Source of the DNA: Paralichthys olivaceus
Taxonomy: Eukaryota; Chordata; Actinopteri; Pleuronectiformes; Paralichthyidae
DNA: 64,000 nt
Reading direction: 5' to 3'
Assembly (NCBI RefSeq): GCF_024713975.1
Contig: NC_091095.1
Coordinates: 1,442,001 to 1,506,000, forward strand
The position numbers were made by a program, and so were the translations under genes. Shown in pieces: positions 557-54,940 of this stretch. The stretch's first letter is position 1. Each line of letters opens with the position of its first letter. The notes under the pieces are model-generated. The model was not told the origin of the DNA and ran no database searches. It saw only the letters and a program-made list of their open reading frames with translations.

Positions 557-614
557 CACATGTGGACATGTGGACATGTGGACATGTGGACATGTGAACA
601 TGTGAACATGTGAA
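557..614. repeat. 8-bp tandem repeat, catgtgga-type
   Basis: About seven tandem copies of an 8-bp unit (acatgtgg changing to acatgtga). Each copy contains CATGTG, an E-box-like CANNTG core, so this is also a cluster of possible bHLH sites about 160 bp upstream of the TATA box. The repeat is seen directly; a regulatory role is inference. Confidence 0.8.
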
Positions 615-770: not shown

Positions 771-779
771 TATATAAAG
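771..779 (+). promoter_or_regulatory. TATA box of the giant LU/mucin gene
   Basis: The sequence tatataaag lies 65 bp upstream of the first ATG, which suits a transcription start near 800 and a very short 5' UTR. TATA-driven promoters are common in tissue-restricted genes; that link is inference. Confidence 0.7.
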
Positions 780-835: not shown

Positions 836-3800
836 ATGATGAAGCTGCTTCTTTCTCTGACTCTCATCTGGGTGCTCTCCAGCACAGGTAACTAATTATC
901 TCTACAATACTGATTCAGCAGCTGCAACAGAACTTCTTTTAAATCTACTTTGAAATATTTGAACATTAATATATTCACCAGCTGTTTGTTCCACTTAAAA
1001 GAAGTCATTTAATATCCTTGAAAATATAAGGAGGCTTTATTGATCCTCAGAGGAGAAATTCATAAGCTACAGTACAGCAGTACAAGAAACAGACTGAACA
1101 GGTAGGAGACAGATCAAATAATTTAGAGTCATGTATGTAGTGTCTATTGTTATTGAAGTTACAACCCATATGTCTGAAACTCCTTTTGAACAACAGTAAG
1201 AAGATCTTTGAGCCTTTATCAACCACAGTTTAGATGAGATCATCATGTCACTGACGAGTTGTCTCCACATTGCAGGTGAAGCACTTGTGTGTCAAAATTG
1301 CACAAATGCTGACTGTTCAAACACAACATCAATTCCATGTCCCACGATGTGTATCACAGCTTCCATTCAAGGTAAACTTTCTACAAGTCATCTGTTACTT
1401 TCCAGTGAAATACATGTACTGCAAAGTGACGTGTGCTTTCCATCACCATTAACAAACTGCACTTTGACTCTGCAGCCGTTTCATCTGGGATTCCTGGACA
1501 ACAAATCTACAAGGCCTGTGCACCCCCCCCCCTGTGTCTATCACCAGGCCCTCAGACATTTTCAGTTAACTTGGGTGTTGAAAGTGCACTAGCAAGTGCT
1601 ACATGCTGCACCACAGACAACTGCAACTCTGTCACTCTGTCTTGTAAGTAGATGTAGATGAATATCTAATGAATCTGCAGCCTTCTTCTGACATGTTCTA
1701 TTTTTAATCCATAACACGTCCATCTTCTCTCTTCCTCTAATCAATAGAATCATGTTTTGTCTGTTTCAGACCCTACAGTTCCAGCAGCTAACAGTCTACT
1801 GTGTCACTATTGTGACCCCATCACCTCTGATTGCAGCAATTCATTACCATGTAAGGGAACAGAGGATCGCTGCTTTCAAGCCAGTGGTAAGTCTTCTTCT
1901 TATATACTGCATTTAAACAAAGATTACTTCAAACCTATTCTACTACCTTTGAGTATCTTTAACATATTCATACTAAAGACTGAAGATACATTTACTCATG
2001 TACTAAACGTTTAAAGCACTTTTAATTAAATCTGTATCATCTGTGTTATTCTGTATTTATGATCCAGAACATTAGAGAATAAAAACAGACTTTTTACTGC
2101 CTCATGTCTTTTTATGAAACGTTTACTTTCTCATCATTTTAAGATCATCATAATGTTTTAGATTTAAAGAGCACACAGGAGATAAAGTAGTTAACATTAC
2201 TTCCATCTTGACCAGTTGACCAAACTATTGATTATTTCTCACTTCATCTGTTTGTTATTTTACATCCTGGAACTCAACTTGATTATAAAACTCTCTAATT
2301 CTTAATTTACTAAGAAAGTGAAAAGCAGAAAATTATAACATTTGACAAGTTGAAAGAATTTTTGCTCAGTTTGAGAGTTTCTTTGATTCCAAAACGATGT
2401 AAATGAACAATTGAAAACTTGAATTCTTACGTTAGATGATCATTGAACTAAGAAATGGTTCCAGCTTTGAAAACATGAGATAAATGCTGCGTAACAACAA
2501 ACACTGAGCTAAATCGATCACTGAGTAAGATTTAGTGCAACATTCTGACTGACGTGAACGTGTGTTTAAATTGTGGACTTGCTTCTTTCACTGAGACAGT
2601 AACTTAACATCAGACTGAAACACAGTGTGTTGCTGCCCTGTGCTGGTTGAATGTTTCAGACCTGTCTCACCTCTGAAAACACCCAGTATAGTTGAAGGGT
2701 GTGGTTGGACTTGATCACAAATATTCTCTGTTGAACATGTGAGAAGATAAAACTGTGAAATCAGTGATGTCACTAGGTCCTGAAGTACACTTGTACATGT
2801 CAGTACTAAGGTGTGATGTTAAACTACTGCACGACTGTAACTATGGCAACAACTGATGTTAAACTACTGTCATCAAAATACATTTCCTCATGAATTCAAG
2901 TTACTCTTAAAGTGAAGAATTCTCTCTGAAATTATTCAACTATCAAACCTACAATTGTGATTTCATCTTTAGTGACAAATGGGGTCATCACTTCTCCAGC
3001 CTTTGGATGTGCATCTTCAAATCTGTGTGCAGCTGCTTCCATCCTGGGGGAGCTGCCTTTCATGCAGAATGTTGGTTCCATTGCCAGTGGACCAGCCTGT
3101 TGTGAGACTAGTTTGTGTAACACTATCACAACTACAACTACTGCTACTCCAACAACAACAACTAGTGCCGCAACTACAACTACTACTACCCCAACCACAA
3201 CAACCACTACCCACACTACAACAACCACTACTCCAATGACAACAACCACTACCCCACCAACAACAACAACCACTACCCCAACCACAACAACCACTACTCC
3301 AACGACAACAACCACTACTTCAACTACAACAACCACTACTCCAACTACAACAACCACTACTCCAACTATAACATCCACTACTCCAATTACAACCACGACA
3401 CCGACCACAACAACCACTACCCCAACTACAACAACCACTACCCCAACCACAACAACCACTATTCCAACGACAACAACCACTACCCCACCAACAACAACAA
3501 CCAGTACTCCAACGACAACAACCACTACCCCACCAACAACAACAACCACTACCCCAACCACAACAACCACTACCCCAACTACAACAACCACTATTCCAAC
3601 AACAACAACCAGTACTCCAACGACAACAACCACTATTCCAACGACAACAACCACTATTCCAACAACAACAACCAGTACTCCAACGACAACAACCACTACC
3701 CCAACAACAACAACCACTACCCTAACCACAACAACCACTACCCCAACTACAACAACAACTACTCCAACGACAACAACCACTACCCCAACAACAACAAAAA

Positions 3801-6800
3801 CTACTCCAACCACAACAACTACTACCCCACCAACAACAACAACCACTACCCCAACTACAACAACCACTATTCCAACGACAACAACCACTATTCCAACAAC
3901 AACAACCAGTACTCCAACGACAACAACCACTACCCCAACAACAACAACCACTACCCTAACCACAACAACCACTACCCCAACTACAACAACAACTACTCCA
4001 ACGACAACAACCACTACCCCAACAACAACAAAAACTACTCCAACCACAACAACTACTACCCCACCAACAACAACAACCACTACCCTAACCACAACAACCA
4101 CTACCCCAACTACAACAACAACTACTCCAACGACAACAACCACTACCCCAACAACAACAAAAACTACTCCAACCACAACAACTACTACCCCACCAACAAC
4201 AACAACCACTACCCCAACAACAACAAAAACTACTCCAACCACAACAACTACTACCCCACCAACAACAACAACCACTACCCCAACTACAACAACCACTACT
4301 CCAACCACAACAACCACTACCCCAACTACAACAACCACTACTCCAACGACAACAACCACTACCCCACCAACAACAACAACCACTACCCCAACTACAACAA
4401 AAACTACTCCAACCACAACAACCACTACCCCACCAACAACAACCACTACTTCAACTACAACAACCACTACTCCAACTACAACAACCACTATTCCAACTAC
4501 AACCACGACACCGACCACAACAACCACTACCCCAACTACAACAACCACTACTCCAACGACAACAACCACTACCCCAACAACAACAACAACAACCACTACC
4601 CCAACAACAACAACAACAACCACTACCCCAACCACAACAACCACTACTCCAACCACAACAACCACTACCCCACCAACAACAACAACCACTACTCCAACCA
4701 CAACAACCACTACCCCAACTACAACAACAACTACTCCAACGACAACAACCACTACTTCAACTACAACAACCACTACCCCAACTACAACAACCACTACCCC
4801 AACTACAACAACCACTACTCCAACTACAACAACCACTACTCCAACTACAACATCCACTACTCCAATTACAACCACGACACCGACCACAACAACCACTACC
4901 CCAACTACAACAACCACTACCCCAACCACAACAACCACTACCCAAATGACAACAACCACTACCCCAACCACAACAACCACTACCCCAACGACAACAACCA
5001 CTACTCCAACGACAACAACCACTACCCCACCAACAACAACAACCACTACTCCAACCACAACAACCACTACCCCAACTACAACAACCACTACTCCAACTAC
5101 AACAACCACTACTCCAACGACAACAACCACTACCCCACCAACAACAACAACAACCACTACCCCAACCACAACAACCACTACGCCAACTACAACAACCACT
5201 ACTCCAACGACAACAACCACTACCCCACCAACAACAACCACTACCCCAACCACAACAACTACCCCAACCACAACAACAACTACCCCAACCACAAGAACCA
5301 CTACTCCAACGACAACCACTACACCGACCACAACAACCACTACCCTAACAACAACCACTGTTCCGACTACAACAACCACTACCCCAACCACAACAACCAC
5401 TGTTCCGACTACAACAACCACTACCCCAACCACAACAACCACTACCCCAACGGCAACAACCACTACCCCGACCACAACAACCACTACCCCAACTACAACA
5501 ACCACTACTCCAACGACAACAACCACTACCCCACCAACAACAACAACAACCACTACCCCAACCACAACAACAACTACCCCAACCACAAAAACTACCCCAA
5601 CCACAACCACCACTACTCCAACAACAACCACTACACCGACCACAACAACCACTATCCCAACTACAACAACCACTACCCCAACCACAACAACCACTACTCC
5701 AACGACAACCACTACATCGACCACAACAACCACTACCCCAACTACAACAACCACTACTCCAACGACAACAACCACTACCCCAACTACAACAACCACTACT
5801 CCAACGACAACAACCACTACCCTAACTACAACAACCACTACCCCAACCACAACAACCAGTACTCCAACGACAACAACCACTACTCCAACGACAACAACCA
5901 CTACCCCAACTACAACAACCACTGTTCCGACTACAACAACCACTACCCCAACCACAACAACCACTACCCCAACTACAACAACAATCACTACGCCCACCAC
6001 AATAACCACTACCCCAACTACAGCAACAACTACTCCAACGACAACAACCACTACTCCAACGACAACAACCACTACCCCACCAACAACAACAACCACTACG
6101 CCAACCACAATAACCACTACCCCAACTACAACAACTACTACTCCAACGACAACAACCACAACTTCAACTACAACAACCACTACTCCAACCACAACAACCA
6201 CTACTCCAACCACAACAACCACTACCCCACCAACAACAACAACCACTACCCCACCAACAACAACAACCACTACCCCAACCACAACAACAACTACTCCAAC
6301 GACAACAACCACTACCCCAACCACAACAATCACTACGCCCACCACAATAACCACTACCCCAACTACAGCAACAACTACTCCAACGACAACAACCACTACT
6401 CCAACGACAACAACCACTACCCCAACCACAACAACCACTACCCCAACGACAACAACCACTACTCCAACCACAACAACCACTACCCCAACCACAACAACCA
6501 CTACCCCAACCACAACAACCACTACCCCAACTACAACAACTACTCCAACAACAACAACAACTACCCCGACGACAAAAACCACTACTCCAACGACAACCAC
6601 TACACCGACCACAACAACCACTACCCCAACTACAACAACCACTACTCCAACGACAGCAACCACTACCCCAACTACAACAACCACTGTTCCGACTACACCA
6701 ACAACTACTCCAACGACAACAACCACTACTTCAACTACAACAACCACTACCCCAACCACAACAACCACTACCCCAACTACAACAACCACTACTCCAACGA

Positions 6801-9800
6801 CAACAACCACTACCCCACCAACAACAACAACCACTACGCCAACCACAATAACCACTACCCCAACTACAACAACTACTACTCCAACGACAACAACCACAAC
6901 TTCAACTACAACAACCACTACTCCAACCACAACAACCACTACTCCAACCACAACAACCACTATCCCACCAACAACAACAACCACTACCCCAACCACAACA
7001 ACAACTACTCCAACGACAACAACCACTACCCCAACCACAACAACCACAACAACCACTACTCCAACCACTACTCCAACCACAACAACCACTACCCCAACCA
7101 CAACAACCACTACCCCAACCACAACAACCACTACCCCAACCACAACAACCACTACTCCAACAACAACAACCACTACCCCAACCACAACAACACCTACTCC
7201 AACTACAACAACCACTACTCCAACAACAACAACCACTACCCCAACCACAACAACAACTACTCCAACTACAACAACCACTACTCCAACAACAACAACCACT
7301 ACCCCAACCACAACAACCACGACCCCAACCACAACAACCACTACCCCAACTACAACAACCACTACTCCAACGACAACCACTACACCAACAACAAGAACCA
7401 CTACCCCAACTACAACAACCACTGTTCCGACTACAACAACCACTACCCCAACCACAACAACCACTACTCCAACGACAACAACCACAACCACAACCACCAC
7501 TGTTCCGACTACAACAACCACTACCCCAAACACAACAACCACTACCCCAACTACAACAACCACTACTCCAACGACAACAACCACTACTCCAACTACAACA
7601 ACCACTACTCCAACTACAACATCCACTACCCCAACCACAACAACCACCATCCCAACGACAACAACCACTACCCCAACCACAACAACCACTACCCCAACTA
7701 CAACAACCACTACTCCAACTACAGCAACCACTACCCCACCAACAACAACAACTACTACGCCAACCACAATAACCACTACCCCAACTACAACAACCACTAC
7801 TCCAACGACAACAACCACTACCCCACCAACAACAACAACCACTACCCCAACTACAACAACAACTACTCCAACTACAACAACAACTACTCCAACTACAACA
7901 ACCACTACTCCAACCACAACAACTACTACCCCAACTACAACAACCACTACCCCAACTACAACAACCACTACCCCAACCACAACTACCACTACCCCAACGA
8001 CAACAACCACTACCCCAACCACAACAACCACTACCCCAACTACAACAACCACTACTCCAACCACAACAACCACTACCCCACCAACTACAACAACCACTAC
8101 CCCAACCACAACAACTACTACCCCAAATACAACAACCACTATTCCAACGACAACAACCACTACCCCACCAACAACAACAACCAGTACTCCAACGACAACA
8201 ACCACTACCCCAACGACAACAACCACTACCCCAACAACAACAACAACAACCACTACCCCAACTACAACAACAACTACTCCAATGACAACAACCACTACTT
8301 CAACTACAACAACCACTACTCCAACCACAACAACCACTACCCCAACCACAACAACCACTACCCCAACCACAACAACCACTACTCCAACGACAACCACTAC
8401 ATCGACCACAACAACCACTACCCCAACTACAACAACCACTACTCCAACTACAACAACCACTACTCCAACCACAACAACCACTACCCCAACGACAACAACC
8501 ACTACCCCAACCACAACAACCACTACCCCAACCACAACAACCACTACTCCAACGACAACAACCACTACCCCAACCACAACAACAACTACTCCAACTACAA
8601 CAACCACTACTCCAACGACAACAACCACTACCCCAACCACAACAACCACGACCCCAACCACAACAACCACTACCCCAACTACAACAACCACTACTCCAAC
8701 GACAACCACTACACCAACAACAACAACCACTACCCCAACTACAACAACCACTGTTCCGACTACAACAACCACTACCCCAACCACAACAACCACTACTCCA
8801 ACGACAACAACCACAACCACAACCACCACTGTTCCGACTACAACAACCACTACCCCAACTACAACAACCACTACTCCAACGACAACAACCACTACTCCAA
8901 CTACAACAACCACTACTCCAACTACAACATCCACTACCCCAACCACAACAACCACCATCCCAACGACAACAACCACTACCCCAACCACAACAACCACTAC
9001 CCCAACTACAACAACCACTACTCCAACTACAACAACCACTACCCCACCAACAACAACAACTACTACGCCAACCACAATAACCACTACCCCAACTACAACA
9101 ACCACTACTCCAACGACAACAACCACTACCCCACCAACAACAACAACCACTACCCCAACTACAACAACAACTACTCCAACTACAACAACAACTACTCCAA
9201 CTACAACAACCACTACTCCAACCACAACAACTACTACCCCAACTACAACAACCACTACCCCAACTACAACAACCACTACCCCAACCACAACTACCACTAC
9301 CCCAACGACAACGACCACTACCCCAACGACAACAACCACTACCCCAACTACAACAACCACTACTCCAACCACAACAACCACTACCCCACCAACTACAACA
9401 ACCACTACCCCAACCACAACAACCACTACCCCAACCACAACAACTACTACCCCAAATACAACAACCACTATTCCAACGACAACAACCACTACCCCACCAA
9501 CAACATCAACCAGTACTCCAACGACAACAACCACTACCCCAACGACAACAACCACTACCCCAACAACAACAACCACTACCCCAACTACAACAACAACTAC
9601 TCCAATGACAACAACCACTACTTCAACTACAACAACCACTACTCCAACCACAACAACCACTACCCCAACCACAACAACCACTACCCCAACCACAACAACC
9701 ACTACTCCAACGACAACCACTACATCGACCACAACAACCACTACCCCAACTACAACAACCACTACTCCAATGACAACAACCACTACCCCAACTACAACAA

Positions 9801-12800
9801 CCACTGTTCCGACTACAACAACCACTACCCCAACCACAACAACCAGTACTCCAACGACAACAACCACTACCCCAACTACAACAACCACTGTTCCGACTAC
9901 AACAACCACTACCCCAACCACAACAACCACTACCCCAACTACAACAACAACTACTCCAACGACATCAACCACTACCCCAACTACAACAACCACTACTCCA
10001 ACTACAACATCCACTACTCCAATTACAACCACTACACCAACAACAACAACCACTACCCCAACTACAACAACCACTGTTCCGACTACAACAACCACTACCC
10101 CAACCACAACAACCACTACTCCAACGACAACAACCACAACCACCACTGTTCCGACTACAACAACCACTACCCCAACTACAACAACCACTACTCCAACGAC
10201 AACAACCACTACTCCAACTACAACAACCACTACTCCAACTACAACATCCACTACCCCAACCACAACAACCACCATCCCAACGACAACAACCACTACCCCA
10301 ACTACAACAACCACTACTCCAACGACAACAACCACTACTCCAACTACAACAACCACTACTCCAACTACAACATCCACTACCCCAACCACAACAACCACCA
10401 TCCCAACGACAACAACCACTACCCCAACCACAACAACCACTACTCCAACGACAACAACCACTACCCCAACCACAACAACCATGACCCCAACCACAACAAC
10501 CACTACTCCAACCACAACAACCACTACTCCAACCACAACAACCACTACCCCACCAACAACAACAACCACTACCCCACCAACAACAACAACCACTACCCCA
10601 ACCACAACAACAACTACTCCAACGACAACAACCACTACCCCAACCACAACAATCACTACGCCCACCACAATAACCACTACCCCAACTACAGCAACAACTA
10701 CTCCAACGACAACAACCACTACTCCAACGACAACAACCACTACCCCAACCACAACAACCACTACCTCAACGACAACAACCACTACTCCAACCACAACAAC
10801 CACTACCCCAACCACAACAACCACTACCCCAACCACAACAACCACTACCCCAACTACAACAACTACTCCAACAACAACAACAACTACCCCGACGACAACA
10901 ACCACTACTCCAACGACAACCACTACACCGACCACAACAACCACTACCCCAACTACAACAACCACTACTCCAACGACAGCAACCACTACCCCAACTACAA
11001 CAACCACTGTTCCGACTACACCAACAACTACTCCAACGACAACAACCACTACTTCAACTACAACAACCACTACCCCAACCACAACAACCACTACCCCAAC
11101 TACAACAACCACTACTCCAACGACAACAACCACTACCCCACCAACAACAACAACCACTACGCCAACCACAATAACCACTACCCCAACTACAACAACTACT
11201 ACTCCAACGACAACAACCACAACTTCAACTACAACAACCACTACTCCAACCACTACTCCAACCACAACAACCACTATCCCACCAACAACAACAACCACTA
11301 CCCCAACCACAACAACAACTACTCCAACGACAACAACCACTACCCCAACCACAACAACCACAACAACCACTACTCCAACCACTACTCCAACCACAACAAC
11401 CACTACCCCAACCACAACAACCACTACCCCAACCACAACAACCACTACCCCAACCACAACAACCACTACTCCAACAACAACAACCACTACCCCAACCACA
11501 ACAACAACTACTCCAACTACAACAACCACTACTCCAACAACAACAACCACTACCCCAACCACAACAACAACTACTCCAACTACAACAACCACTACTCCAA
11601 CAACAACAACCACTACCCCAACCACAACAACCACGACCCCAACCACAACAACCACTACCCCAACTACAACAACCACTACTCCAACGACAACCACTACACC
11701 AACAACAAGAACCACTACCCCAACTACAACAACCACTGTTCCGACTACAACAACCACTACCCCAACCACAACAACCACTACTCCAACGACAACAACCACA
11801 ACCACAACCACCACTGTTCCGACTACAACAACCACTACCCCAAACACAACAACCACTACCCCAACTACAACAACCACTACTCCAACGACAACAACCACTA
11901 CTCCAACTACAACAACCACTACTCCAACTACAACATCCACTACCCCAACCACAACAACCACCATCCCAACGACAACAACCACTACCCCAACCACAACAAC
12001 CACTACCCCAACTACAACAACCACTACTCCAACTACAACAACCACTACCCCACCAACAACAACAACTACTACGCCAACCACAATAACCACTACCCCAACT
12101 ACAACAACCACTACTCCAACGACAACAACCACTACCCCACCAACAACAACAACCACTACCCCAACTACAACAACAACTACTCCAACTACAACAACAACTA
12201 CTCCAACTACAACAACCACTACTCCAACCACAACAACTACTACCCCAACTACAACAACCACTACCCCAACTACAACAACCACTACCCCAACCACGACTAC
12301 CACTACCCCAACGACAACAACCACTACCCCAACGACAACAACCACTACCCCAACTACAACAACCACTACTCCAACCACAACAACCACTACCCCACCAACT
12401 ACAACAACCACTACCCCAACCACAACAACCACTACCCCAACCACAACAACTACTACCCCAAATACAACAACCACTATTCCAACGACAACAACCACTACCC
12501 CACCAACAACAACAACCAGTACTCCAACGACAACAACCACTACCCCAACGACAACAACCACTACCCCAACAACAACAACCACTACCCCAACTACAACAAC
12601 AACTACTCCAATGACAACAACCACTACTTCAACTACAACAACCACTACTCCAACCACAACAACCACTACCCCAACCACAACAACCACTACCCCAACCACA
12701 ACAACCACTACTCCAACGACAACCACTATATTGACCACAACAACCACTACCCCAACTACAACAACCACTACTCCAATGACAACAACCACTACCCCAACTA

Positions 12801-39800: not shown

Positions 39801-42800
39801 CTACAACAACCAGTACTCCAACCACAACATCCACTACTCCAACCACAACATCCACTACTCCAATTACAACCACGACCGCAACTACAACAACCACTACTCC
39901 AATGACAACAACCACTACCCCAACCACAACAACTACGCCAACTACAACAACCACTACTCCAACGACAACAACCACTACCCCACCAACAACAACAACCCCT
40001 ACCCCAACTACAACAACCACTGCCCCAACAACAACAACCACTACCCCAACTACAACAACCACTACTCCAACGACAACAACCACTACCCCAACCAGAACAA
40101 CCTCTACTCCAAAGACAATAACCACTACCCCACCAACAACAACAACCAATACCCCAACTACAACAACCACTACTCCAACGACAACAACCACTACCCCACC
40201 ACCAACAACAACAACCAGTACTCCACCGACAACAACCACTACTTCAATTACAACAACCACTACCCCAACCACAACAACCACTACCCCAACGACAACAACC
40301 ACTACCCCAACTACAACAACCACTACTCCAAAGACAACAACCACTACCCCACCAACAACAACAACCACTACCCCAACCACAACAACCACTACCCCAACTA
40401 CAATAGCCGCTGTTCAAACTACAACAACCCCTACCCCAACAACAACAACCACTGCCCCAACAACAACAACCACTACCCCAACTACGACAACCACTGTTCC
40501 AACTACAACAACTACCCCAACATCAACAACTACTACCCCAACATCAACAACCACTACCCCAACTACAACAACCACTACTCCAACTACAACAATCACTACC
40601 CAAACCACAACCACTACGCCAACTACAACAACCACTACCCCACCAACAACAACAACCAATACCCCAACATCAACAACCACTACTCCAACGACAACAACCA
40701 CTACCCCACCAACAACAACAACCAATACCCCAACATCAACAACCACTACTCCAACGACAACAACCACTACCCCACCACCAACAACAACAACCAGTACTCC
40801 ACCGACAACAACCACTACTTCAATTACAACAGCTACTATTCTAACAACCACTTCACCGACCACAACAACCACTACCCCAACTACAACAACCACTACCCCA
40901 ACTACAATAGCCGCTGTTCAAACTACAACAACCCCTACCCCAACTACAACAACCACTGCCCCAACAACAACAACCACTACCCAAACTATGACAACCACTG
41001 TTCCAACTACAACAACTACCCCAACATCAACAACTACTACCCCAACATCAACAACCACTACCCCAACTACAACAACCACTACTCCAATGACAACAACCAC
41101 TACCCCAACGACAACAACCACTACTCCAACAACAACAACCACTACCCCAACTACAACAACCACTACCCAAACCACATCCACTACGCCAACTACAACAACC
41201 ACTACTCCAACGACAACAACCACTACCCCACCAACAACAACAACCACTAACCCAACCACAACAACCACTACCCCAACGACAACAACCACTACCCCACCAA
41301 CAACAACAACCAATACCCCAACCACAACAACCACTACTCCAACGACAACAACCACTACTCCAACGACAACAACCACTACCCCACCAACAACAACAACCAC
41401 TACCCCAACCACAACAACCACTACTCCAACGACAACAACCACTACTCCAACGACAACAACCACTACCCCACCAACAACAACAACCACAACAACCACTACC
41501 CCAACGACAACAACCACTACCCCACCAACAACAACAACCAATACCCCAACAACAACAACCAATACCCCAACCACAACAACCACTACCCCACCACCAACAA
41601 CAACAACCAGTACTCCACCGACAACAACCACTACTTCAATTACAACAGCTACTACTCCAACAACCACTTCACCGACCACAACAACCACTACCCCAACTAC
41701 AACAACCACTGCCCCAACAACAACAACCACTACCCCAACTACGACAACCACTGTTCCAACTACAACAACTACCCCAACATCAACAACTACTACCCCAACA
41801 TCAACAACCACTACCCCAACTACAACAACCACAACTCCAATGACAACAACCACTACCCCAACGACAACAACCACTACTCCAACGACAACAACAACCACTA
41901 CCCCAACCACTACCCCAACTACAACAACCACTACCCCAACTACAATAGCCGCTGTTCAAACTACAACAACCCCTACCCCAACTACAACAACCACTGCCCC
42001 AACAACAACAACCACTACCCCAACTACGACAACCACGACCCCACCAACAACAACAACCACTACCCCAACCACAACAACCACTACTCCAACGACAACAACC
42101 ACTACCCCACCAACAACAACAACCAATACCCCAACCACAACAACCACTACTCCAACGACAACAACCACTACCCCACCACCAACAACAACAACCAGTACTC
42201 CACCGACAACAACCACTACTTCAATTACAACAACCACTACCCCACCAACAACAACAACCACTACCCCAACCACAACAACCACTACACCAACGACAACAAC
42301 CACTACCCCAACTACAACAACCAATACTCCAAAGACAACAACCACTACCCCACCAACAACAACAACCACTACCCCAACCACAACAACCACTACCCTAACT
42401 ACAACAACCACAACTCCAAAGACAACAACCACTACCCCACCAACAACAACCAATACCCCAACCACAAAAACCACTACTCCAACGACAACAACCACTACCC
42501 CACCACCAACAACAACCACTACCCCAACTACAATAGTAGCTGTTCAAACTACAACAACCAGTACTCCAACCACAACATCCACTACTCCAATTACAACCAC
42601 GACCGCAACTACAACAACCACTACTCCAATGAGAACAACCACTACCCCAACCACAACAACTACGCCAACTACAACAACCACTACTCCAACGACAACAACC
42701 ACTACCCCACCAACAACAACAACCACTACCCCAACCACAACAACCACTACTCCAACTACAACAACCACTACCCCAACTACAACAACCACTACTCCAACGA

Positions 42801-45800
42801 CAACAACCACTACCCCAACCAGAACAACCTCTACTCCAAAGACAATAACCACTACCCCACCAACAACAACAACCAATACCCCAACTACAACAACCACTAC
42901 TCCAACGACAACAACCACTACCCCACCACCAACAACAACAACCAGTACTCCACCGACCACAACCACTACTTCAATTACAACAACCACTACCCCAACCACA
43001 ACAAACACTACCCCAACGACAACAACCACTACCCCAACTACAACAACCACTACTCCAAAGACAACAACCACTACCCCACCAACAACAACAACCACTACCC
43101 CAACCACAACAACCACTACCCCAACTACAATAGCCGCTGTTCAAACTACAACAACCCCTACCCCAACAACAACAACCACTGCCCCAACAACAACAACCAC
43201 TACCCCAACTACGACAACCACTGTTCCAACTACAACAACTACCCCAACATCAACAACTACTACCCCAACATCAACAACCACTACCCCAACTACAACAACC
43301 ACTACTCCAACTACAACAACCACTACCCAAACCACAACCACTACGCCAACTACAACAACCACTACTCCAACGACAACAACCACTACCCCACCAACAACAA
43401 CAACCAATACCCCAACATCAACAACCACTACTCCAACGACTACAACCACTACCCCACCACCAACAACAACAACCAGTACTCCACCGACAACAACCACTAC
43501 TTCAATTACAACAGCTACTATTCTAACAACCACTTCACCGACCACAACAACCACTACCCCAACTACAACAACCACTACCCCAACTACAATAGCCGCTGTT
43601 CAAACTACAACAACCCCTACCCCAACAACAACAACCACTACCCAAACTACGACAACCACTGTTCCAACTACAACAACTACCCCAACATCAACAACTACTA
43701 CCCCAACATCAACAACCACTACCCCAACTACAACAACCACTACTCCAATGACAACAACCACTACCCCAACGACAACAACCACTACTCCAACGACAACAAC
43801 CACTACCCCAACTACAACAACCACTACCCAAACCACATCCACTACGCCAACTACAACAACCACTACTCCAACGACAACAACCACTACCCCACCAACAACA
43901 ACAACCACTAACCCAACCACAACAACCACTACCCCAACGACAACAACCACTACCCCACCAACAACAACAACCAATACCCCAACCACAACAACCACTACTC
44001 CAACGACAACAACCACTACTCCAACGACAACAACCACTACCCCATCAACAACAACAACCACTGCCCCAACCACAACAACAACTACCCCGACGACAACAAC
44101 CACTACTCCAACGACAACCACTACACTGACCACAACAACCACTACCCCGACTACAACAACCACTACCCCAACTACAATAGTAGCTGTTCAAACTACAACA
44201 ACCAGTACTCCAACCACAACATCCACTACTCCAACCACAACATCCACTACTCCAATTACAACCACGACCGCAACTACAACAACCACTACTCCAATGACAA
44301 CAACCACTACCCCAACCACAACAACTACGCCAACTACAACAACCACTACTCCAACGACAACAACCACTACCCCACCAACAACAACAACCCCTACCCCAAC
44401 TACAACAACCACTGCCCCAACAACAACAACCACTACCCCAACTACAACAACCACTACTCCAACGACAACAACCACTACCCCAACCAGAACAACCTCTACT
44501 CCAAAGACAATAACCACTACCCCACCAACAACAACAACCAATACCCCAACTACAACAACCACTACTCCAACGACAACAACCACTACCCCACCACCAACAA
44601 CAACAACCAGTACTCCACCGACAACAACCACTACTTCAATTACAACAACCACTACCCCAACCACAACAACCACTACCCCAACGACAACAACCACTACCCC
44701 AACGACAACAACCACTACTCCAAAGACAACAACCACTACCCCACCAACAACAACAACCACTACCCCAACCACAACAACCACTACCCCAACTACAATAGCC
44801 GCTGTTCAAACTACAACAACCCCTACCCCAACAACAACAACCACTGCCCCAACAACAACAACCACTACCCCAACTACGACAACCACTGTTCCAACTACAA
44901 CAACTACCCCAACATCAACAACTACTACCCCAACATCAACAACCACTACCCCAACTACAACAACCACTACTCCAACTACAACAATCACTACCCAAACCAC
45001 AACCACTACGCCAACTACAACAACCACTACCCCACCAACAACAACAACCAATACCCCAACATCAACAACCACTACTCCAACGACAACAACCACTACCCCA
45101 CCAACAACAACAACCAATACCCCAACATCAACAACCACTACTCCAACGACAACAACCACTACCCCACCACCAACAACAACAACCAGTACTCCACCGACAA
45201 CAACCACTACTTCAATTACAACAGCTACTATTCTAACAACCACTTCACCGACCACAACAACCACTACCCCAACTACAACAACCACTACCCCAACTACAAT
45301 AGCCGCTGTTCAAACTACAACAACCCCTACCCCAACTACAACAACCACTGCCCCAACAACAACAACCACTACCCAAACTATGACAACCACTGTTCCAACT
45401 ACAACAACTACCCCAACATCAACAACTACTACCCCAACATCAACAACCACTACCCCAACTACAACAACCACTACTCCAATGACAACAACCACTACCCCAA
45501 CGACAACAACCACTACTCCAACGACAACAACCACTACCCCAACTACAACAACCACTACCCAAACCACATCCACTACGCCAACTACAACAACCACTACTCC
45601 AACGACAACAACCACTACCCCACCAACAACAACAACCACTAACCCAACCACAACAACCACTACCCCAACGACAACAACCACTACCCCACCAACAACAACA
45701 ACCAATACCCCAACCACAACAACCACTACTCCAACGACAACAACCACTACTCCAACGACAACAACCACTACCCCACCAACAACAACAACCACTACCCCAA

Positions 45801-48800
45801 CCACAACAACCACTACTCCAACGACAACAACCACTACTCCAACGACAACAACCACTACCCCACCAACAACAACAACCACAACAACCACTACCCCAACGAC
45901 AACAACCACTACCCCACCAACAACAACAACCAATACCCCAACAACAACAACCAATACCCCAACCACAACAACCACTACCCCACCACCAACAACAACAACC
46001 AGTACTCCACCGACAACAACCACTACTTCAATTACAACAGCTACTACTCCAACAACCACTTCACCGACCACAACAACCACTACCCCAACTACAACAACCA
46101 CTGCCCCAACAACAACAACCACTACCCCAACTACGACAACCACTGTTCCAACTACAACAACTACCCCAACATCAACAACTACTACCCCAACATCAACAAC
46201 CACTACCCCAACTACAACAACCACAACTCCAATGACAACAACCACTACCCCAACGACAACAACCACTACTCCAACGACAACAACAACCACTACCCCAACC
46301 ACTACCCCAACTACAACAACCACTACCCCAACTACAATAGCCGCTGTTCAAACTACAACAACCCCTACCCCAACTACAACAACCACTGCCCCAACAACAA
46401 CAACCACTACCCCAACTACGACAACCACGACCCCACCAACAACAACAACCACTACCCCAACCACAACAACCACTACTCCAACGACAACAACCACTACCCC
46501 ACCAACAACAACAACCAATACCCCAACCACAACAACCACTACTCCAACGACAACAACCACTACCCCACCACCAACAACAACAACCAGTACTCCACCGACA
46601 ACAACCACTACTTCAATTACAACAACCACTACCCCACCAACAACAACAACCACTACCCCAACCACAACAACCACTACCCCAACGACAACAACCACTACCC
46701 CAACTACAACAACCAATACTCCAAAGACAACAACCACTACCCCACCAACAACAACAACCACTACCCCAACCACAACAACCACTACCCTAACTACAACAAC
46801 CACAACTCCAAAGACAACAACCACTACCCCACCAACAACAACCAATACCCCAACCACAAAAACCACTACTCCAACGACAACAACCACTACCCCACCACCA
46901 ACAACAACCACTACCCCAACCACAACAACAACTACTCCAACGACAACAACCACTACTCCGAAGACAACAACCACTACCCCAACCACAACAACCACTACTC
47001 CAACGACAACAACCACTACCCCAACCACAACAACCACCACCCCAACCACAACAACCACTACTCCAGCTACAACAACCACTACCCCACCAACAACAACCAC
47101 TACCCCAACCACAACAACCACTACCCCAACTACAACAACCACTACTCCTACGACAACAACCACTACCCCACCAACAACAACAACCACTACCCCAACCACA
47201 ACAACCACTACTCCAACTACAACAACCACTACCCCACCAACAACAACAACAAGAACCAGTACTCCAACCACAACAACCACTACCCCAACCACAACAACCA
47301 CTACTCCAACGACAACAACCACTACCCCAACCACAACAACCACGACCCCAACCACAACAACCACGACCCCAACTACAACAACTACTCCAACAACAACAAC
47401 CACTACTCCAACGACAACAACCACTACCCCAACCACAACAACCACGACCCCAACCACAACAACCACTACCCCAACCACAACAACCACTACCCCAACCACA
47501 ACAACCACGACCCCAACCACAACAACCACTACTCCAACGACAACAACCACTACCCCACCAACAACTTCAACCAGTACCCCAACCACAACAACCACTACCC
47601 CAACTACAACAACAACTACTCCAACGACAACAACCACTACTCCAACTACAACAACCACTACCCCAAACACAACAACAACTACTCCAACGACAACAACCAC
47701 TACTCCGAAGACAACAACCACTACCCCAACCACAACAACCACTACTCCAACGACAACAACCACTACTCCAGCTACAACAACCACTACCCCACCAACAACA
47801 ACAGCCAGTACCCCAACCACAACAACCACTACCCCACCAACAACAACAACCACCACCCCAACCACAACAACCACTACTCCAGCTACAACAACCACTACCC
47901 CACCAACCACAACAACCACTTCTCCAACTACAACAACCACTACTCAAACTACAACAACCACTACCCCACCAACAACAACAACCAGTACTCCAACGACAAC
48001 AACCACTACCCCAACCACAACAACCACTACTCCAACGACAACAACCACGACCCCAACCAAAACAACCACTACCCCACCAACAACAACAACCACTACCCCA
48101 ACCACAACAACCACTACTCCAACCACAACAACCACTACCCCACCAACAACAACAACCACTACCCCAACCACAACAACAACTACTCCAACTACAACAACCA
48201 TTACTCCAACGACAACAACCACTACCCCAACCACAACAACCACGACCCCAACCACAACAACCACTACTCCAACCACAACAACCACTACCCCAACGACAAC
48301 AACCACTACCCCAACTACAACAACCACTACCCCAACCACAACAACCACTACTCCAACCACAACAACCGCTACCCCACCAACAACAACAACCACCACCCCA
48401 ACCACAACAACCACTACTCCAGCTACAACAACCACTACCCCACCAACAACAACCACTACCCCAACCACAACAACCACTACCCCAACTACAACAACCACTA
48501 CTCCTACGACAACAACCACTACCCCACCAACAACAACAACCACTACCCCAACCACAACAACCACTACCCCAACTACAACAACCAGTACTCCAACGACAAC
48601 AACCACTACTCCAACTACAACAACCGCTACTCCAACTACAACAACCAGTACTCCAACGACAACAACCACTTCCCCACCAACAACAACAACCACTACCCCA
48701 ACCACAACAACCACTACCCCAACTACAACAACAACTACTCCAACGACAACAACCACTACTTCAACTACAACAACCACTACTCCAACTACAACAACCACTA

Positions 48801-51800
48801 CTCCAACTACAACATCCACTACTCCAATTACAACAACCACTACCCCACCAACAACAACAACCACTACCCCAACCACAACAACCACTACCCCAACGACAAC
48901 AACCACTACCCCAACTACAACAACCACTACTCCAAAGACAACAACCACTACCCCACCAACAACAACAACCACTACCCCAACCACAACAACCACTACCCTA
49001 ACTACAACAACCACAACTCCAAAGACAACAACCACTACCCCACCAACAACAACCAATACCCCAACCACAAAAACCACTACTCCAACGACAACAACCACTA
49101 CCCCACCACCAACAACAACCAGTACTCCAACGACAACAACCACTACTTCAACTACAACAACCAATACTCCAACTACAATAGCCGCTGTTCAAACTACAAC
49201 AACCACTACTCCAACTACAACAACCAATACTCCAATTACAACCACGACCACAACTACAACAACCACTACTCCAACGACAACAACCACTACCCCAACGACA
49301 GCAACCACTACCCCACCAACCACTACCCCAACCACAACAACCACTACCCCACCAACAACAACACCCAGTACTCCAACGACAACAACCACTACTTCAACTA
49401 CAACAACCAATACTCCAACTACAATAGCCGCTGTTCAAACTACAACAACCACTACTCCAACTACAACAACCAATACTCCAACCACAACATCCACTACTCC
49501 AACCACAACATCCACTACTCCAATTACAACCACGACCACAACTACAACAACCACTACTCCAACGACAACAACCACTACCCCAACGACAGCAACCACTACC
49601 CCAACTACAACAACCACTTCCCCAACCACAACAACCACTACCCCAACTACAACAACCACTACTCCAACGACAACAACCACTACCCCAACTACAACAAACA
49701 CTACCCCAACCACAACAACCACTACCCCAACTACAACAACCACTCCTCCAACGACAACAACCACAACCCCACCAACAACAACAACCACTACCCCACCAAC
49801 AACAACAACAACCAGTACTCCACCTACAACAACCACTACTTCAACGACAACAACCACTACCCGACCAACAACAACAACCACTACCCCAACTACAACAACC
49901 ACTACTCCAACTACAACAACCACTACCCCACCAACAACAACAACAACCAGTACTCCACCTACAACAACCTCTACTTCAACGACAACAACCACTACCCGAC
50001 CAACAACAACAACCACTACCCCAACCACAACAACCACTACCCCAACTACAACAACCATAACTCCAAAGACAATAACCACTACCCCACCAACAACAACAAC
50101 CACTACCCCAACTACAACAACCACTACTCCAACTACAACAACCACTACCCCACCAACAACAACAACAACCAGTACTCCACCTACAACAACCACTACTTCG
50201 ACTACAACAGCTACTACTCCAACAACCACTGCCCCGACAACAACAACCACTACCACAACTAAGACAACCACTGTTCCAACTACAACAACAACTACCCCAA
50301 CAACGACAACCACTACCCCGACTACAACAACCACTACCCCAACTACAATTACCAGTACCCCGACTACAACAACCACTACAACAACCACTGTTCCAGCGAC
50401 AACAACCACTACTCCAACAACAACCACTGTTCCAACTACAACAATAACTACCCCAACAGCAAAAACCAATTCCCCAAGTACGACAACCACTTCCCCAACT
50501 ACAACAACCACCGTTCAAACTACAACAACTACCCCAACAACAACAACCACTACCCTGACTACAAGAACCACTGTTCCAACTACAACAACTACCCCAACAA
50601 CAACAACCACTACCCCTACTACAACAACCACTGTTCCAACTACAACAACTACTACCCCAACAACAATGACTACCCCAACTACAACAATCACTGTCCCAAC
50701 TACAACAACAACTACCCCAACATCAACAACCACTGTGCCAACTACAACAACAACTACCCCACCAACAACAACAACCACTACCCCGATTACAACAACCACT
50801 ATTCCAACTACAACAACCACTACCCCAACTACAACAACTACCCCAACAACAACAACCACTACCCCGACTACAACAACCACTGTGCCAACTACAACAACTA
50901 CTACCCCAACAACAACAACCACTACCCCAACTACAACAACCACTACTCCAACGACAACAACCACTACCCCAGCTACAACAACCTCTACTTCAACGACAAC
51001 AACCACTACCCGACCAACAACAACAACCACTACCCCAACCACAACAACCACTACCCCAACTACAACAACCATAACTCCAAAGACAATAACCACTACCCCA
51101 CCAACAACAACAACCACTACCCCAACTACAACAACCACTACTCCAACTACAACAACCACTACCCCACCAACAACAACAACAACAACCAGTACTCCACCTA
51201 CAACAACCACTACTTCAACTACAACAGCTACTACTCCAACAACCACTGCCCCGACAACAACAACCACTACCCCAACTAAGACAACCACTGTTCCAACTAC
51301 AACAACAACTACCCCAACAACGACAACCACTACCCCGACTACAACAACCACTACCCCAACTACAATTACCAGTACCCCGACTACAACAACCACTACAACA
51401 ACCACTGTTCCAGCGACAACAACCACTACTCCAACAACAACCACTGTTCCAACTACAACAATAACTACCCCAACAGCAAAAACCAATTCCCCAAGTACGA
51501 CAACCACTTCCCCAACTACAACAACCACCGTTCAAACTACAACAACTACCCCAACAACAACAACCACTACCCTGACTACAAGAACCACTGTTCCAACTAC
51601 AACAACTACTACCCCAACAACAACGACTACCCCAACTACAACAATCACTGTCCCAACTACAACAACAACTACCCCAACATCAACAACCACTACCCCAACT
51701 ACAACAATCACTACAACAACCACTGTTCCAACTACAACAACTACTACTCCAACAACAACAACTACTGGCCCAACTACAACAACCACTGTCCCAACTACAA

Positions 51801-54124
51801 CAACCACTAACCCACCAACAACAAGAACAAGTCCTCCAACGACGACTACCACTACTCCAACGACAACAACCACTACCCCAACTACAACAACCACTACTCC
51901 AACTACAACAATCACTACAACAACCACTGTTCCAACGACAACAACCACTACTCCAGCAACAACAACCACTGTTCCAACTACAATAATAACTACCCCAACA
52001 GCAACAACCAATTCCCCAACTATGACAACCACTACCCCGACTACAAGAACCACTTCCCCAACTACAACAACCACCGTTCCAACTACAACAACCACTGTTC
52101 CAACTACAACAACTACCCCGACTACAACAACCACTGTGCCAACTACAACAACAACTACCCCACCAACAACAACAACCACTACCCCGATTACAACAACCAC
52201 TATTCCAACTACAACAACCACTACCCCAACTACAACAACTACCCCAACAACAACAACCACTACCCCGACTACAACAACCACTGTGCCAACTACAACAACT
52301 ACTACCCCAACAACAACAACCACTACCCCAACTACAACAACCACTGTTCCAACTACAACAACTACCCCAACATCAACAACTACTACCCCAACATCAACAA
52401 CCACTACCCCAACTACAACAACCACTACAACAACCACTACCCCAACTACAACAACCTCTACTTCAACGACAACAACCACTACCCGACCAACAACAACAAC
52501 CACTACCCCAACCACAACAACCACTACCCCAACTACAACAACCATAACTCCAAAGACAATAACCACTACCCCACCAACAACAACAACCACTACCCCAACT
52601 ACAACAACCACTACTCCAACTACAACAACCACTACCCCACCAACAACAACAACAACAACAACCAGTACTCCACCTACAACAACCACTACTTCAACTACAA
52701 CAGCTACTACTCCAACAACCACTGCCCCGACAACAACAACCACTACCCCAACTAAGACAACCACTGTTCCAACTACAACAACAACTACCCCAACAACGAT
52801 AACCACTACCCCGACTACAACAACCACTACCCCAACTACAATTACCAGTACCCCGACTACAACAACCACTACAACAACCACTGTTCCAGCGACAACAACC
52901 ACTACTCCAACAACAACCACTGTTCCAACTACAACAATAACTACCCCAACAGCAAAAACCAATTCCCCAAGTACGACAACCACTTCCCCAACTACAACAA
53001 CCACCGTTCAAACTACAACAACTACCCCAACAACAACAACCACTACCCTGACTACAAGAACCACTGTTCCAACTACAACAACCACTAACCCACCAACAAC
53101 AAGAACAAGTCCTCCAACGACGACTACCACTACTCCAACGACAACAACCACTACCCCAACTACAACAACCACTACTCCAACTACAACAATCACTACAACA
53201 ACCACTGTTCCAACGACAACAACCACTACTCCAGCAACAACAACCACTGTTCCAACTACAATAATAACTACCCCAACAGCAACAACCAATTCCCCAACTA
53301 TGACAACCACTACCCCGACTACAAGAACCACTTCCCCAACTACAACAACCACCGTTCCAACTACAACAACCACTACCCCAACTACAACAACCACTGTTCC
53401 AACTACAACAACTACCCCGACTACAACAACCACTGTGCCAACTACAACAACAACTACCCCACCAACAACAACAACCACTACCCCGATTATAACAACCACT
53501 ATTCCAACTACAACAACCACTACCCCAACTACAACAACTACCCCAACAACAACAACCACTACCCCGACTACAACAACCACTGTGCCAACTACATCAACTA
53601 CTACCCCAACAACAACAACCACTACCCCAACTACAACAACCACTGTTCCAACTACAACAACTACCCCAACATCAACAACTACTACCCCAACATCAACAAC
53701 CACTACCCCAACTACAACAACCACTACAACAACCACTACCCCAACTACAACAACCACTGTTCCAACTACAACAACTACCCCAACATCAAGAACCACTACC
53801 CCGACTACAACAATCACTGTTGTAACAACAACAACTGCTGTACCAACTTCAACAACTGCTGCAAAAACTACAACTACTGCTTCAACTACAGCAACTGCTG
53901 CACCAGTTATATCTTCGGAAGAAACACCAACAACACTTTCCGAAGCACCTACAACTGTTCTCCCAACAGATACTGTCCCTCCGACGACAATAACGTCCTC
54001 CAACCTAGCAACAACTTCCAACTCAACGACACAGGCAGCTACAACCTCTGGCAGTGATGCCTGTTATATCAGGATGGGAATGCTCCATTTGTTGATTGGA
54101 TTACTTTATTTCATCCTATTTTAG
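836..54124 (+). CDS. Giant two-LU-domain, Thr/Pro mucin-like GPI-anchored protein (17,194 aa)
   Basis: Exons: 836..887, 1276..1371, 1476..1643, 1770..1886, 2973..54124. All introns are GT/AG and phase 1, and the join has no internal stop. Start choice: tandem ATG ATG opens a signal peptide (MMKLLLSLTLIWVLSST) 65 bp after a TATA box. Residues 23-100 and 117-194 are two full Ly6/uPAR domains, each starting CxxC and ending CCxxxxCN. Residues from 195 to about 17,090 are heptads of six Thr and one Pro, with occasional Ser, Asn, Val, Ile, Lys or Gln; this is an expected mucin-type O-glycosylation substrate. The last 25 residues form a GPI signal. The architecture matches LYPD3/C4.4A (two LU domains, Ser/Thr/Pro stalk, GPI), but I cannot assign orthology. 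Inferred role: an extremely long cell-surface or shed mucin-like glycoprotein. The ligand of the LU domains is unknown. Array length depends on correct assembly. Confidence 0.85.
1034..1200 (-). mobile_element. L2-like retroelement 3' tail in intron 1
   Basis: On the minus strand the sequence at 1035-1061 reads as a short snap-back followed by gatcaataaag. This is the usual 3' end of fish L2-type LINEs and the SINEs that use them. The adjoining tacagcagtacaa also fits that tail. The far boundary is a guess. Confidence 0.5.
1290..1627 (+). other. LU domain 1 (exons 2-3)
   Basis: Residues 23-100 carry ten cysteines at 23, 26, 31, 39, 43, 64, 70, 93, 94 and 99, followed by Asn100. This is the complete three-finger Ly6/uPAR pattern with its CC-x4-CN close. 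Possible N-glycosylation sequons are N25-C-T and N33-T-T. Two exons divided by a phase-1 intron encode the domain, as is typical of the family. Confidence 0.9.
1523..1532 (+). repeat. C10 homopolymer inside coding exon 3
   Basis: Ten consecutive C bases encode the Ala-Pro-Pro-Pro-Leu turn of LU domain 1 between Cys64 and Cys70. A one-base slip would put everything downstream, including the stalk, out of frame. Confidence 0.9.
1802..3121 (+). other. LU domain 2 (exon 4 and start of exon 5)
   Basis: Residues 117-194 carry cysteines at 117, 120, 127, 133, 140, 157, 163, 187, 188 and 193, followed by Asn194, again a complete LU set. The first half is in exon 4. The second half opens the giant exon directly after the acceptor at 2971-2972, so domain, stalk and anchor signal share one exon. 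Confidence 0.9.
1887..2972 (+). other. Intron 4 of the giant gene
   Basis: GTAAGT donor and TTTAG acceptor. The 1,086 bp are AT-rich and I see no gene, RNA or clear repeat in them. Confidence 0.75.
6327..14609 (+). repeat. Higher-order repeat A, about 4.3 kb and 4.0 kb copies
   Basis: The landmark caatcactacgcccacc at 6327 recurs at 10650 and 14610, giving offsets of 4,323 and 3,960 bp. A second landmark (tgttccgact...ccaaacac) at 7501 recurs at 11815, offset 4,314, so the copies differ by in-frame deletions. Smaller nested blocks of about 1.34-1.43 kb are visible, for example the ccaaatacaac landmark near 8124 and 9465. Confidence 0.8.
15300..20120 (+). repeat. Higher-order repeat B, 2,409-bp tandem pair
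   Basis: Landmarks at 16331 (actcctccaac) and 16615 (aaatac) recur exactly 2,409 bp later, at 18740 and 19024. A 12-bp in-frame deletion near 19515 shortens the offset to 2,397 at the cacaaccaacc landmark (17351 to 19748). A third, rearranged copy carries the same landmark at about 23,494. The outer edges are approximate. Confidence 0.8.
35800..49000 (+). repeat. Segment duplicated at an 11,208-bp offset
   Basis: Sequence at about 35.8-38.0 kb matches about 46.9-49.0 kb. The actactcaaa landmark at 36731 recurs at 47939, an offset of 11,208 bp. The two copies flank the 4.5-kb tandem pair. Limits are approximate, and the intervening DNA belongs to repeat C. Confidence 0.65.
38000..46920 (+). 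repeat. Higher-order repeat C, about 4.5-kb tandem duplication
   Basis: The block from about 38,000 to 42,530 is repeated from about 42,530 to 46,920. Landmarks are offset by 4,530 bp in the first part (38,041 to 42,571) and by 4,392 bp after a 138-bp in-frame deletion in copy 2, within the unit running from about 43,600 to 44,160. Long stretches appear identical, suggesting a recent duplication. Confidence 0.85.
49441..53810 (+). repeat. Higher-order repeat D, 1,017- and 1,476-bp copies rich in TVP
   Basis: The landmark aaaaaccaattccccaagt near 50461 recurs at 51478 (offset 1,017) and 52954 (offset 1,476). This C-terminal portion has more Val, Asn, Ser, Ile and Ala than the rest of the stalk and looks more diverged from the plain heptad. 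Confidence 0.8.
54047..54121 (+). other. GPI-attachment signal
   Basis: The last 25 residues begin with SGSDA, which supplies small-residue candidates for the omega site. A short spacer with Arg follows, then the 14-residue hydrophobic tail MLHLLIGLLYFILF ends directly at the stop. No cytoplasmic residues follow, so GPI attachment is favoured over a transmembrane anchor. Confidence 0.8.
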
Positions 54125-54131
54125 AACTCAG

Positions 54132-54137
54132 AATAAA
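54132..54137 (+). promoter_or_regulatory. Polyadenylation signal AATAAA, proximal
   Basis: AATAAA begins 8 bp after the stop codon of the giant gene. A second AATAAA at 54200-54205 and a third at 54231-54236 give more usual spacing. Which one is used cannot be told from sequence. Confidence 0.5.
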
Positions 54138-54199
54138 AATGGATGAAGGAACTATGAAGCCAACAGATGAACTCTGATTAATTATGCCAACACAACTCT

Positions 54200-54205
54200 A
54201 ATAAA
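54200..54205 (+). promoter_or_regulatory. Polyadenylation signal AATAAA, distal
   Basis: Second AATAAA, 76 bp downstream of the stop codon, followed by T-rich sequence. It is a plausible main poly(A) signal for the giant transcript. Confidence 0.55.
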
Positions 54206-54210
54206 ACTTT

Positions 54211-54248
54211 AGACCTTTCCCCAAGGGGACAATAAAGTCTTAAGTCTT
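54211..54248 (+). mobile_element. L2-like retroelement 3' tail
   Basis: A ttccccaagggga snap-back followed by caataaagt and a short taagtctt repeat resembles the 3' tail of fish L2-type LINEs/SINEs. It may supply a poly(A) signal to the giant gene; that is inference. Confidence 0.5.
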
Positions 54249-54940
54249 AAATGTATTCATTAGCTATAATTTGACTGGAATATTGAAGTGAAAGTTACTA
54301 ACTACGGATTTCCTCTAAAACCTCTGTGTATTCAAATGGACTGAAATCTGTCAGTTCAAAATTTTGATTAAAATTACACAAATAATTAAAACAAACAAAT
54401 ATTACTATCTTATGGATCTTAAAGGTAAAAAGATTAAAGCAAAAATAAAGTAGTTGTTCAGTAAACACAGACTGAACAGATTTTTTTTTTGTCAGTTAAG
54501 TATTTGGGAGAATTGTCCGTGGAGTAGTGGTTGTTGTAGTTGGGGTCGTGGTTGTTTATTTTTGCTTGAGAAGCAACGTTGGGTCTTTATGGTTTTGATT
54601 GCTTTTATCTATTTATTTATAAATTGCTTTACTTAAGATGACAGCTAATGCTTGTGTGGTGGTTTCTCTTTTATATGATTCAAATTGGACTTTTACATTT
54701 AATGAAGTTTAAAAAAACATGTAAATTAGTATAAATTTGGGTAACATTACAAACTAAGGAAATATTTACTGTTTTCTATATTCTATGTGCTTTTCATTCA
54801 CAATCATGATGTTCTAATTTTGTTTTCCAAAAAGGCACATAAATAAAGAAATTCTAAGCTATGATATCCTATAGATTGTCATTATTATGGTTTTATCATG
54901 TTTCAGGGCAATGAATGGAAATAAAACATAAACTCAATGT
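54241..54940. other. Convergent intergenic region
   Basis: AT-rich DNA between the 3' ends of the giant gene (plus) and GPX7 (minus). I see no gene. It contains a T10 run at about 54,481 and a stray inverted copy of the Thr/Pro minisatellite, listed next. Confidence 0.65.
54521..54554 (-). repeat. Isolated inverted copy of the Thr/Pro minisatellite
   Basis: These 34 bp are the reverse complement of a common array phase (caaccacgaccccaac followed by tacaacaaccactactcc). The copy sits about 400 bp beyond the stop codon in unique AT-rich DNA and in opposite orientation to the array. Confidence 0.85.

Follow-up and report, generated by a model that had tools for sequence, protein, structure and literature searches.

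The stretch of DNA analysed here (the window; 64,000 nucleotides of Paralichthys olivaceus, C3:1442001-1506000 in a single assembly of 588,085,608 bases and 25 contigs) probably holds a genuine protein-coding fish gene, whose product would be a GPI-tethered mucin with an LU head; no other member of its tandem family is as long. Six LU-LU heads lie in tandem at 1.32-1.50 Mb of contig C3, all on the plus strand; we call them P1 to P6, P6 being the last and the gene of the window (Table 1). Only P4, P5 and P6 are intact. Judged from sequence, what emerges beyond the single-gene view is a row of related genes whose stalks vary greatly in length and whose heads are apparently under selection. With 17,194 predicted residues, P6 would rank among the largest predicted vertebrate proteins, and we know of no larger protein with a GPI-type tail.

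Table 1. Features of P6 (window positions) and placement of the other five family members (positions on C3).
Feature	Position	Strand	Basis or remark
TATA box (tatataaa)	771..778	+	consensus match; about 65 bases 5' of the ATG
Exon 1, signal peptide	836..887	+	gene model; identical in five full copies
Exon 2, first part of LU1	1276..1371	+	gene model, cysteine pattern
Exon 3, second part of LU1	1476..1643	+	includes ten-C run 1523-1532
Exon 4, linker and first part of LU2	1770..1886	+	gene model, cysteine pattern
Exon 5, second part of LU2, Thr/Pro stalk, GPI-type tail and stop	2973..54124	+	
Stalk array, 21-base unit, mainly TTTTTTP	3121..53900	+	
C-terminal part with GPI-type signal (SGSDAC...HLLIGLLYFILF)	54002..54121	+	rule of thumb
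AATAAA polyadenylation signals at 54132, 54200 and 54231	54132..54236	+	
P1	C3:1321386	+	one extra C in exon-3 run; stalk TGA at 1327255
P2	C3:1380665	+	in frame into LU pair P3
P3	C3:1383048	+	without exon 1; intron 4 different
P4	C3:1395267-1406054	+	3,027 aa
P5	C3:1414051-1434378	+	6,207 aa

Gene model, LU head and C-terminal tail

Joined, the five exons of P6 read in frame from the signal peptide to the stop at 54124 with no internal stop, and all four introns have GT-AG borders and lie in phase 1, which bears out the five-exon gene and the length proposed in the sequence-only reading. Exon 5 (51,152 bases) lies within a single open frame of 17,064 codons. Unglycosylated, the product has a computed mass of 1.73 MDa, with 13,380 Thr, 355 Ser and 2,551 Pro. 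The TATA box falls within a segment, from -239 to +2282 relative to the ATG, over which P6 is 98.8-99.0% identical to P1, P2, P4 and P5. AATAAA is absent from exon 5, and ATTAAA occurs there once. Some 220 bases 5' of the gene, at window positions 558-612, there are about seven copies of ACATGTGG.

Residues 22-193 of P6 comprise two LU domains, 35% identical to one another, with ten cysteines each; the count of 20 in the head agrees with the two complete domains that had been claimed. Both follow the LU-family pattern ending in CC....CN, and each is encoded by two exons with phase-1 introns, as the family rule demands: according to the available part of a published account, LU domains span two exons each and are generally flanked by phase-1 introns (PMC6600238). 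The Pfam profile PF00021 (UPAR_LY6) matches the two-domain head at 25.8 bits (cut-off 24.8), the single domains scoring 19.4 and 18.3 bits and falling under that cut-off; LU2 clears the related PF00087 (21.8 against 21.2). On its sequence, the predicted product is an LU-family protein. When a profile built from six of this genome's LU domains was searched against PDB, five matches were returned up to E=10. One was significant, 6zss (E=0.00026), labelled Ly6/PLAUR domain-containing protein 1 (LYPD1); the other four, at E=0.33 to 1.5, were a cardiotoxin, PSCA, a lynx protein and a neurotoxin, and neither C4.4A nor uPAR was among the five in this weak six-sequence search. A single-sequence PDB search matched FliC only, which was judged to be chance and discarded. 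Across the genome, PF00021 gave one match outside the cluster (C7:16667236-16667472, 32.4 bits, in a single open frame); it missed the C3 cluster, probably because exons split the LU domain there.

The signal peptide and the GPI signal of P6 are rule-of-thumb calls from sequence. By eye, the C-terminus fits the GPI pattern, with small residues, a short spacer, a hydrophobic end and no cytoplasmic tail, and it stands in frame with the LU-LU head and the Thr/Pro stalk, as the earlier reading had it; we consider it likely that the product is GPI-anchored. Ends similar to this tail were found at eight places in the genome, P6 among them, in open frames of 17,064, 6,077, 2,897, 716, 385, 141, 98 and 92 codons, those of 385 and 141 codons belonging to the broken P1 and P3.

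The stalk array and its reading frame

Behind LU2, P6 continues for 16,903 residues, 13,332 of them Thr and 2,529 Pro, and the array as a whole is 79% Thr and 15% Pro. Tandem Repeats Finder (TRF) describes it as a single 21-bp array of 2,384 copies (3121-53727). When the stalk is cut at Pro, 2,247 units result, among which 1,637 have seven residues and 1,195 read exactly TTTTTTP; the Thr6-Pro heptads of the sequence-only reading, put at about 16,900 residues, are hence the main unit, with other units also present. These long, Ser/Thr- and Pro-rich tandem repeats carry the mark of a mucin, and if the protein is made, its Thr-rich stalk would very probably bear O-glycans. No other Thr6-Pro protein was found among the 150 of 876 genome candidates that were scored. 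A 35-base unit motif occurs 646 times in the genome in forward orientation and 646 times in the three exon-5 arrays (101 in P4, 155 in P5 and 390 in P6); a further 26 copies in reverse orientation lie outside the 264 kb examined on C3, showing that the motif is not confined to P4-P6, and these perhaps mark another stalk gene on the minus strand. Within the 21-base unit (3121-53727), the silent positions of codons 1 and 6 depart from consensus in 65% and 43% of copies, respectively, the other silent positions being far less variable.

Across 3121-53900 the coding frame has no stop, and the other two plus frames have 19 and 141. An open frame alone is weak evidence of coding, because Thr and Pro codons seldom mutate to stops and slippage acts mostly in threes: among the 16,920 codons of the P6 array, only 402 single-base changes would create a stop. 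Given about 1,576 distinct contexts of substitution, about four stops would be expected without selection, by rough estimate, and the probability of finding none is about 0.016, a rough figure that takes every change as equally likely. The stop-free frame was accordingly rejected as sole proof of coding, since composition leaves few routes to a stop. Indels were treated in the same way. After merging, which joined 29 pairs of adjacent out-of-frame gaps that could stem from the alignment itself, none of 426 indels (177 distinct contexts) had a net change of frame; more than 99% of repeated words of at least 5 bases are, however, spaced by multiples of three (offsets up to 45, leaving out 21 and 42), and as microhomology alone yields this proportion, phase-keeping indels were rejected as proof of coding. 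Nor did purifying selection on the stalk heptads leave more than a weak signal. With the two hypervariable silent positions left out, amino-acid changes in the P6 array occur at 0.8-0.9 times the frequency of silent ones (mean number of distinct contexts for each possible change, amino-acid versus silent: 19.6 versus 22.0 for transitions, 8.2 versus 10.5 for transversions), and this near match implies very little constraint on the precise sequence of the stalk.

Homology provides stronger evidence of coding than the open frame. In all five intact final exons examined (P4, P5, P6 and two relatives on contig C7), LU2 and the GPI-type tail share one exon whether an array separates them or not, which places the array within a coding exon. 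The frames of P4 and P5 stay open from LU2 through to the GPI-type tail, over 2,882 and 6,062 codons, and the P4-P6 arrays contain no stop in 25,692 codons. The stalk relic of P3 contains non-array DNA, frame changes and stops: the array decays where constraint seems to have been lost. By homology, the P6 array is very probably coding; we infer that it is transcribed throughout, and its continuous translation seems quite probable.

The array might nonetheless be a neutral minisatellite between a coding head and a coding tail, stop-free by chance and translated into a protein whose stalk length serves no function. Such a reading draws on a composition that keeps the frame open under little selection, on amino-acid changes almost as frequent as silent ones, and on exact duplications within the P6 array, the longest of 1,523 bases, which point to recent expansion. 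It fits less well with the stalks of the family as a whole, which are formed of three separate repeat types (in P1, in P4-P6 and in one C7 relative), all Thr-rich, or with the absence of stops from all three intact arrays when about four, roughly estimated, would be expected in P6 alone, and we regard it as rather unlikely. The same long duplications, together with the 71% of the P6 array that consists of exact repeats 150 bases or longer, could also be taken to indicate that its giant size comes from misassembly, by inflation or collapse. This is highly improbable, as P4, P5 and P6 do not carry copies of a single array (exact identity with P6 extends over 241 bases at most in P5 and over 92 in P4) and the assembly is chromosome-like, with 25 contigs for 588 Mb. 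Finally, the array could be spliced out internally to leave a short LU-LU-GPI protein, for which the near-stalkless relative on C7 would be a precedent. By an approximate weight matrix, even the poorest-scoring of the four real donors outscores all 240 GT sites in exon 5, while 17 of 268 acceptor-like sites reach the weakest real acceptor; we give internal splicing scant credence. A continuously coding array remains the reading that we prefer.

Family evolution and probable selection on the head

The C3 members differ in state as much as in length. P1 is probably broken, with eleven C where P6 exon 3 has ten (window 1523-1532), although such a run can also be an assembly error; the run is a point at which these genes could easily lose their frame. 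At C3:1380665-1387186 the short-stalked last exon of P2 is in frame with the first LU exon of P3, and the two may possibly encode a four-LU protein, with 402 residues to the last LU domain, followed by the remains of a decayed stalk and a GPI-type tail. Relatives on C7 are 57-66% identical over the second part of LU1, and a hand-joined C7 relative scores 40.3 bits against PF00021. Two places on C7 were examined, their exons being joined by eye. One has a 92-codon final exon in which LU2 is followed by about 20 residues and the GPI-type tail, the other a 716-codon final exon with about 630 residues of its own, different repeat. Short- and long-stalked relatives in one genome offer a natural series for studying the origin of the stalk and the effect of its length.

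In the C3 cluster, stalks and tails do not share the near-identity of the segment from promoter to head. The P1 stalk (TTTTTAP/TTTTAP) has no 60-mer in common with the other stalks. Over 4.5 kb of 3' flank, P4 and P5 are 98.8% identical and P6 is unlike both; in the last 120 coding bases P6 differs from P4/P5 at 36, whereas the heads are about 1-2% apart. Probably, unequal exchange within and between arrays both changes stalk length and re-pairs heads with the tails of their neighbours. Gene conversion of the heads could alternatively account for part of the C3 pattern.

Among the five full copies, 17 head sites vary nonsynonymously (436 such sites on offer) and none synonymously (143 on offer), against 22 of 1,704 intron sites; the nonsynonymous excess is supported by Fisher's test relative to introns (p=0.0009) and, one-sided, relative to synonymous sites (p=0.007). 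Restricting the comparison to P2, P4, P5 and P6 gives 15 nonsynonymous, 0 synonymous and 20 intron sites (p=0.0023 and 0.013), and to the three intact genes 13, 0 and 15 (p=0.0016 and 0.024). These p-values are uncorrected and the head tests were picked after the data had been seen; the sites are few, and copies that undergo exchange are not fully independent. When the P3 exons are added, the tally becomes 23 nonsynonymous to 1 synonymous (binomial p 0.002-0.010 over several transition weights), with 13 of the 23 in LU1, 7 in LU2 and 3 before or between the domains. A comparison of these six-copy exons with the five-copy introns (23, 1 and 22/1,704; p=3.5e-6) was set aside, as P3 lacks exon 1 and has a different intron 4.

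Assembly errors should strike introns just as often as heads. Relaxed constraint after duplication, acting without selection, would be in keeping with the decay seen in P1 and P2/P3 and with the small number of variable head sites; yet it predicts equal rates, and the nonsynonymous rate is about three times that of introns whether five (0.039 versus 0.013), four (0.034 versus 0.012) or three copies (0.030 versus 0.009) are compared. Moreover, all 20 head cysteines are retained in all six C3 copies (P1 being aligned without its extra C), and relaxation is in our judgement improbable. We conclude, with reasonable though not full confidence, that the heads are under diversifying selection. Such selection is also known from three-finger proteins of venoms and immunity. 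For three-finger proteins of reproduction, it is reported in the portion of PMC8830517 available to us. A head that is apparently selected, on a stalk whose sequence drifts, suggests that the giant part is the carrier and the small part the business end.

Kinship, proposed role and genomic surroundings

The sequence-only reading likened the layout of P6 to that of LYPD3/C4.4A, whose locus lies near ETHE1, XRCC1 and PHLDB3. The likeness extends to the order of parts, LU-LU, Ser/Thr/Pro region and GPI signal, and stops short of membership, which we rejected on the mammalian mark of an LU1 without cysteines 7-8: ten cysteines are present in LU1 of all six C3 heads and one C7 relative. In the excerpts at hand, cysteines 7-8 are missing from LU1 of human uPAR, C4.4A and Haldisin, to which PMC6337849 adds TEX101, CD177 and PINLYP; C4.4A, without the 7-8 disulfide in its LU1, is in this respect unlike the 10-10 pattern of P6. 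The same source, as excerpted, gives a 10-10-10 cysteine pattern for the best uPAR matches in Lates and lungfish (PMC6337849), and the cysteine pattern alone therefore leaves common descent possible. C4.4A is described, in the part of the text consulted, as having the same order of two LU domains, mucin-type region and GPI anchor, with 15 putative O-glycosylation sites in its Ser/Thr/Pro region (PMC7053344), compared with some 13,700 Ser and Thr residues in the complete P6 protein.

Other systems resemble P6 in part. Two-LU fish proteins, likened here by description, are possibly its true kin, and the excerpts that describe them mention no long stalk. In the case of salamander SPF and fish Bouncer, duplicates of three-finger genes were recruited to reproduction and diversified there; the accessible text mentions no giant mucin stalk like that of P6 (PMC8830517). 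Zebrafish Ly2.1-3 are bacteria-binding Ly6 proteins that likewise form a cluster; the abstract describes them as antimicrobial peptides and mentions no stalk (PMC5240587). As to size, the initial view that P6 is on a par with the largest mucins is sound, and its stalk is extreme; that the stalk is far longer than known goes too far, since the excerpted preprint predicts 4,677-23,080 aa for human MUC12 haplotypes with a giant VNTR exon (PMC13345508). A giant repeat exon is common to P6 and to MUC12, MUC16 and MUC4. The latter three are transmembrane-anchored, non-LU proteins, whereas P6 has an LU head and a GPI-type tail. Among the open-access matches listed, judged by title and the start of the abstract, no LU head on a giant mucin stalk was found.

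We propose that P6 would be a secreted mucin with its two LU (three-finger) domains outermost and its GPI anchor at the membrane. The intervening stalk, some 16,900 residues rich in Thr and Pro, would be stiff under a dense cover of O-glycans; at the 0.20-0.25 nm rise per residue of extended mucins, we infer a length of some 3.4-4.2 micrometres. It could act as both barrier and spacer, showing the head at or beyond mucus and glycocalyx, where the head may bind a changing partner. Such a partner would explain diversifying selection on the head; tentatively, it might be a microbe, a parasite or a gamete. A more speculative, and on balance doubtful, extension is that the C3 cluster and its C7 kin form a height-graded display of diversifying three-finger heads. 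Near-identical promoters and LU heads on C3 would be joined to stalks ranging from thousands of residues to the micrometre scale, with C7 contributing stalks of almost none or hundreds of residues; one cell or tissue could then show heads at several distances from its membrane, and exchange in the stalk repeats would shuffle heads, heights and tails. No such display is described in the listed open-access papers, as far as their titles and the openings of their abstracts tell.

In the 264 kb examined on C3, Pfam identifies one neighbour of P6, a minus-strand glutathione peroxidase gene at window positions 55255-58420 (PF00255, E=2e-32 for one ORF; extent by eye), a tetraspanin-like ORF remaining under the cut-off. 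Further down from it lies a plus-strand gene that we take to be TUT4-like, one ORF of which gave no Pfam match. Upstream in the cluster, at least C3:1333978-1379619 is occupied by tandem repeats of about 600 bases, many with an ORF starting SQPKNVTLITTLTLPLPKVVEARGWYQWNGH; Pfam returned nothing convincing for these ORFs, some of which end in NPNP repeats. In the 3' flank, outside P6, about two inverted 21-base stalk units are recognisable by eye at window positions 54521-54556.
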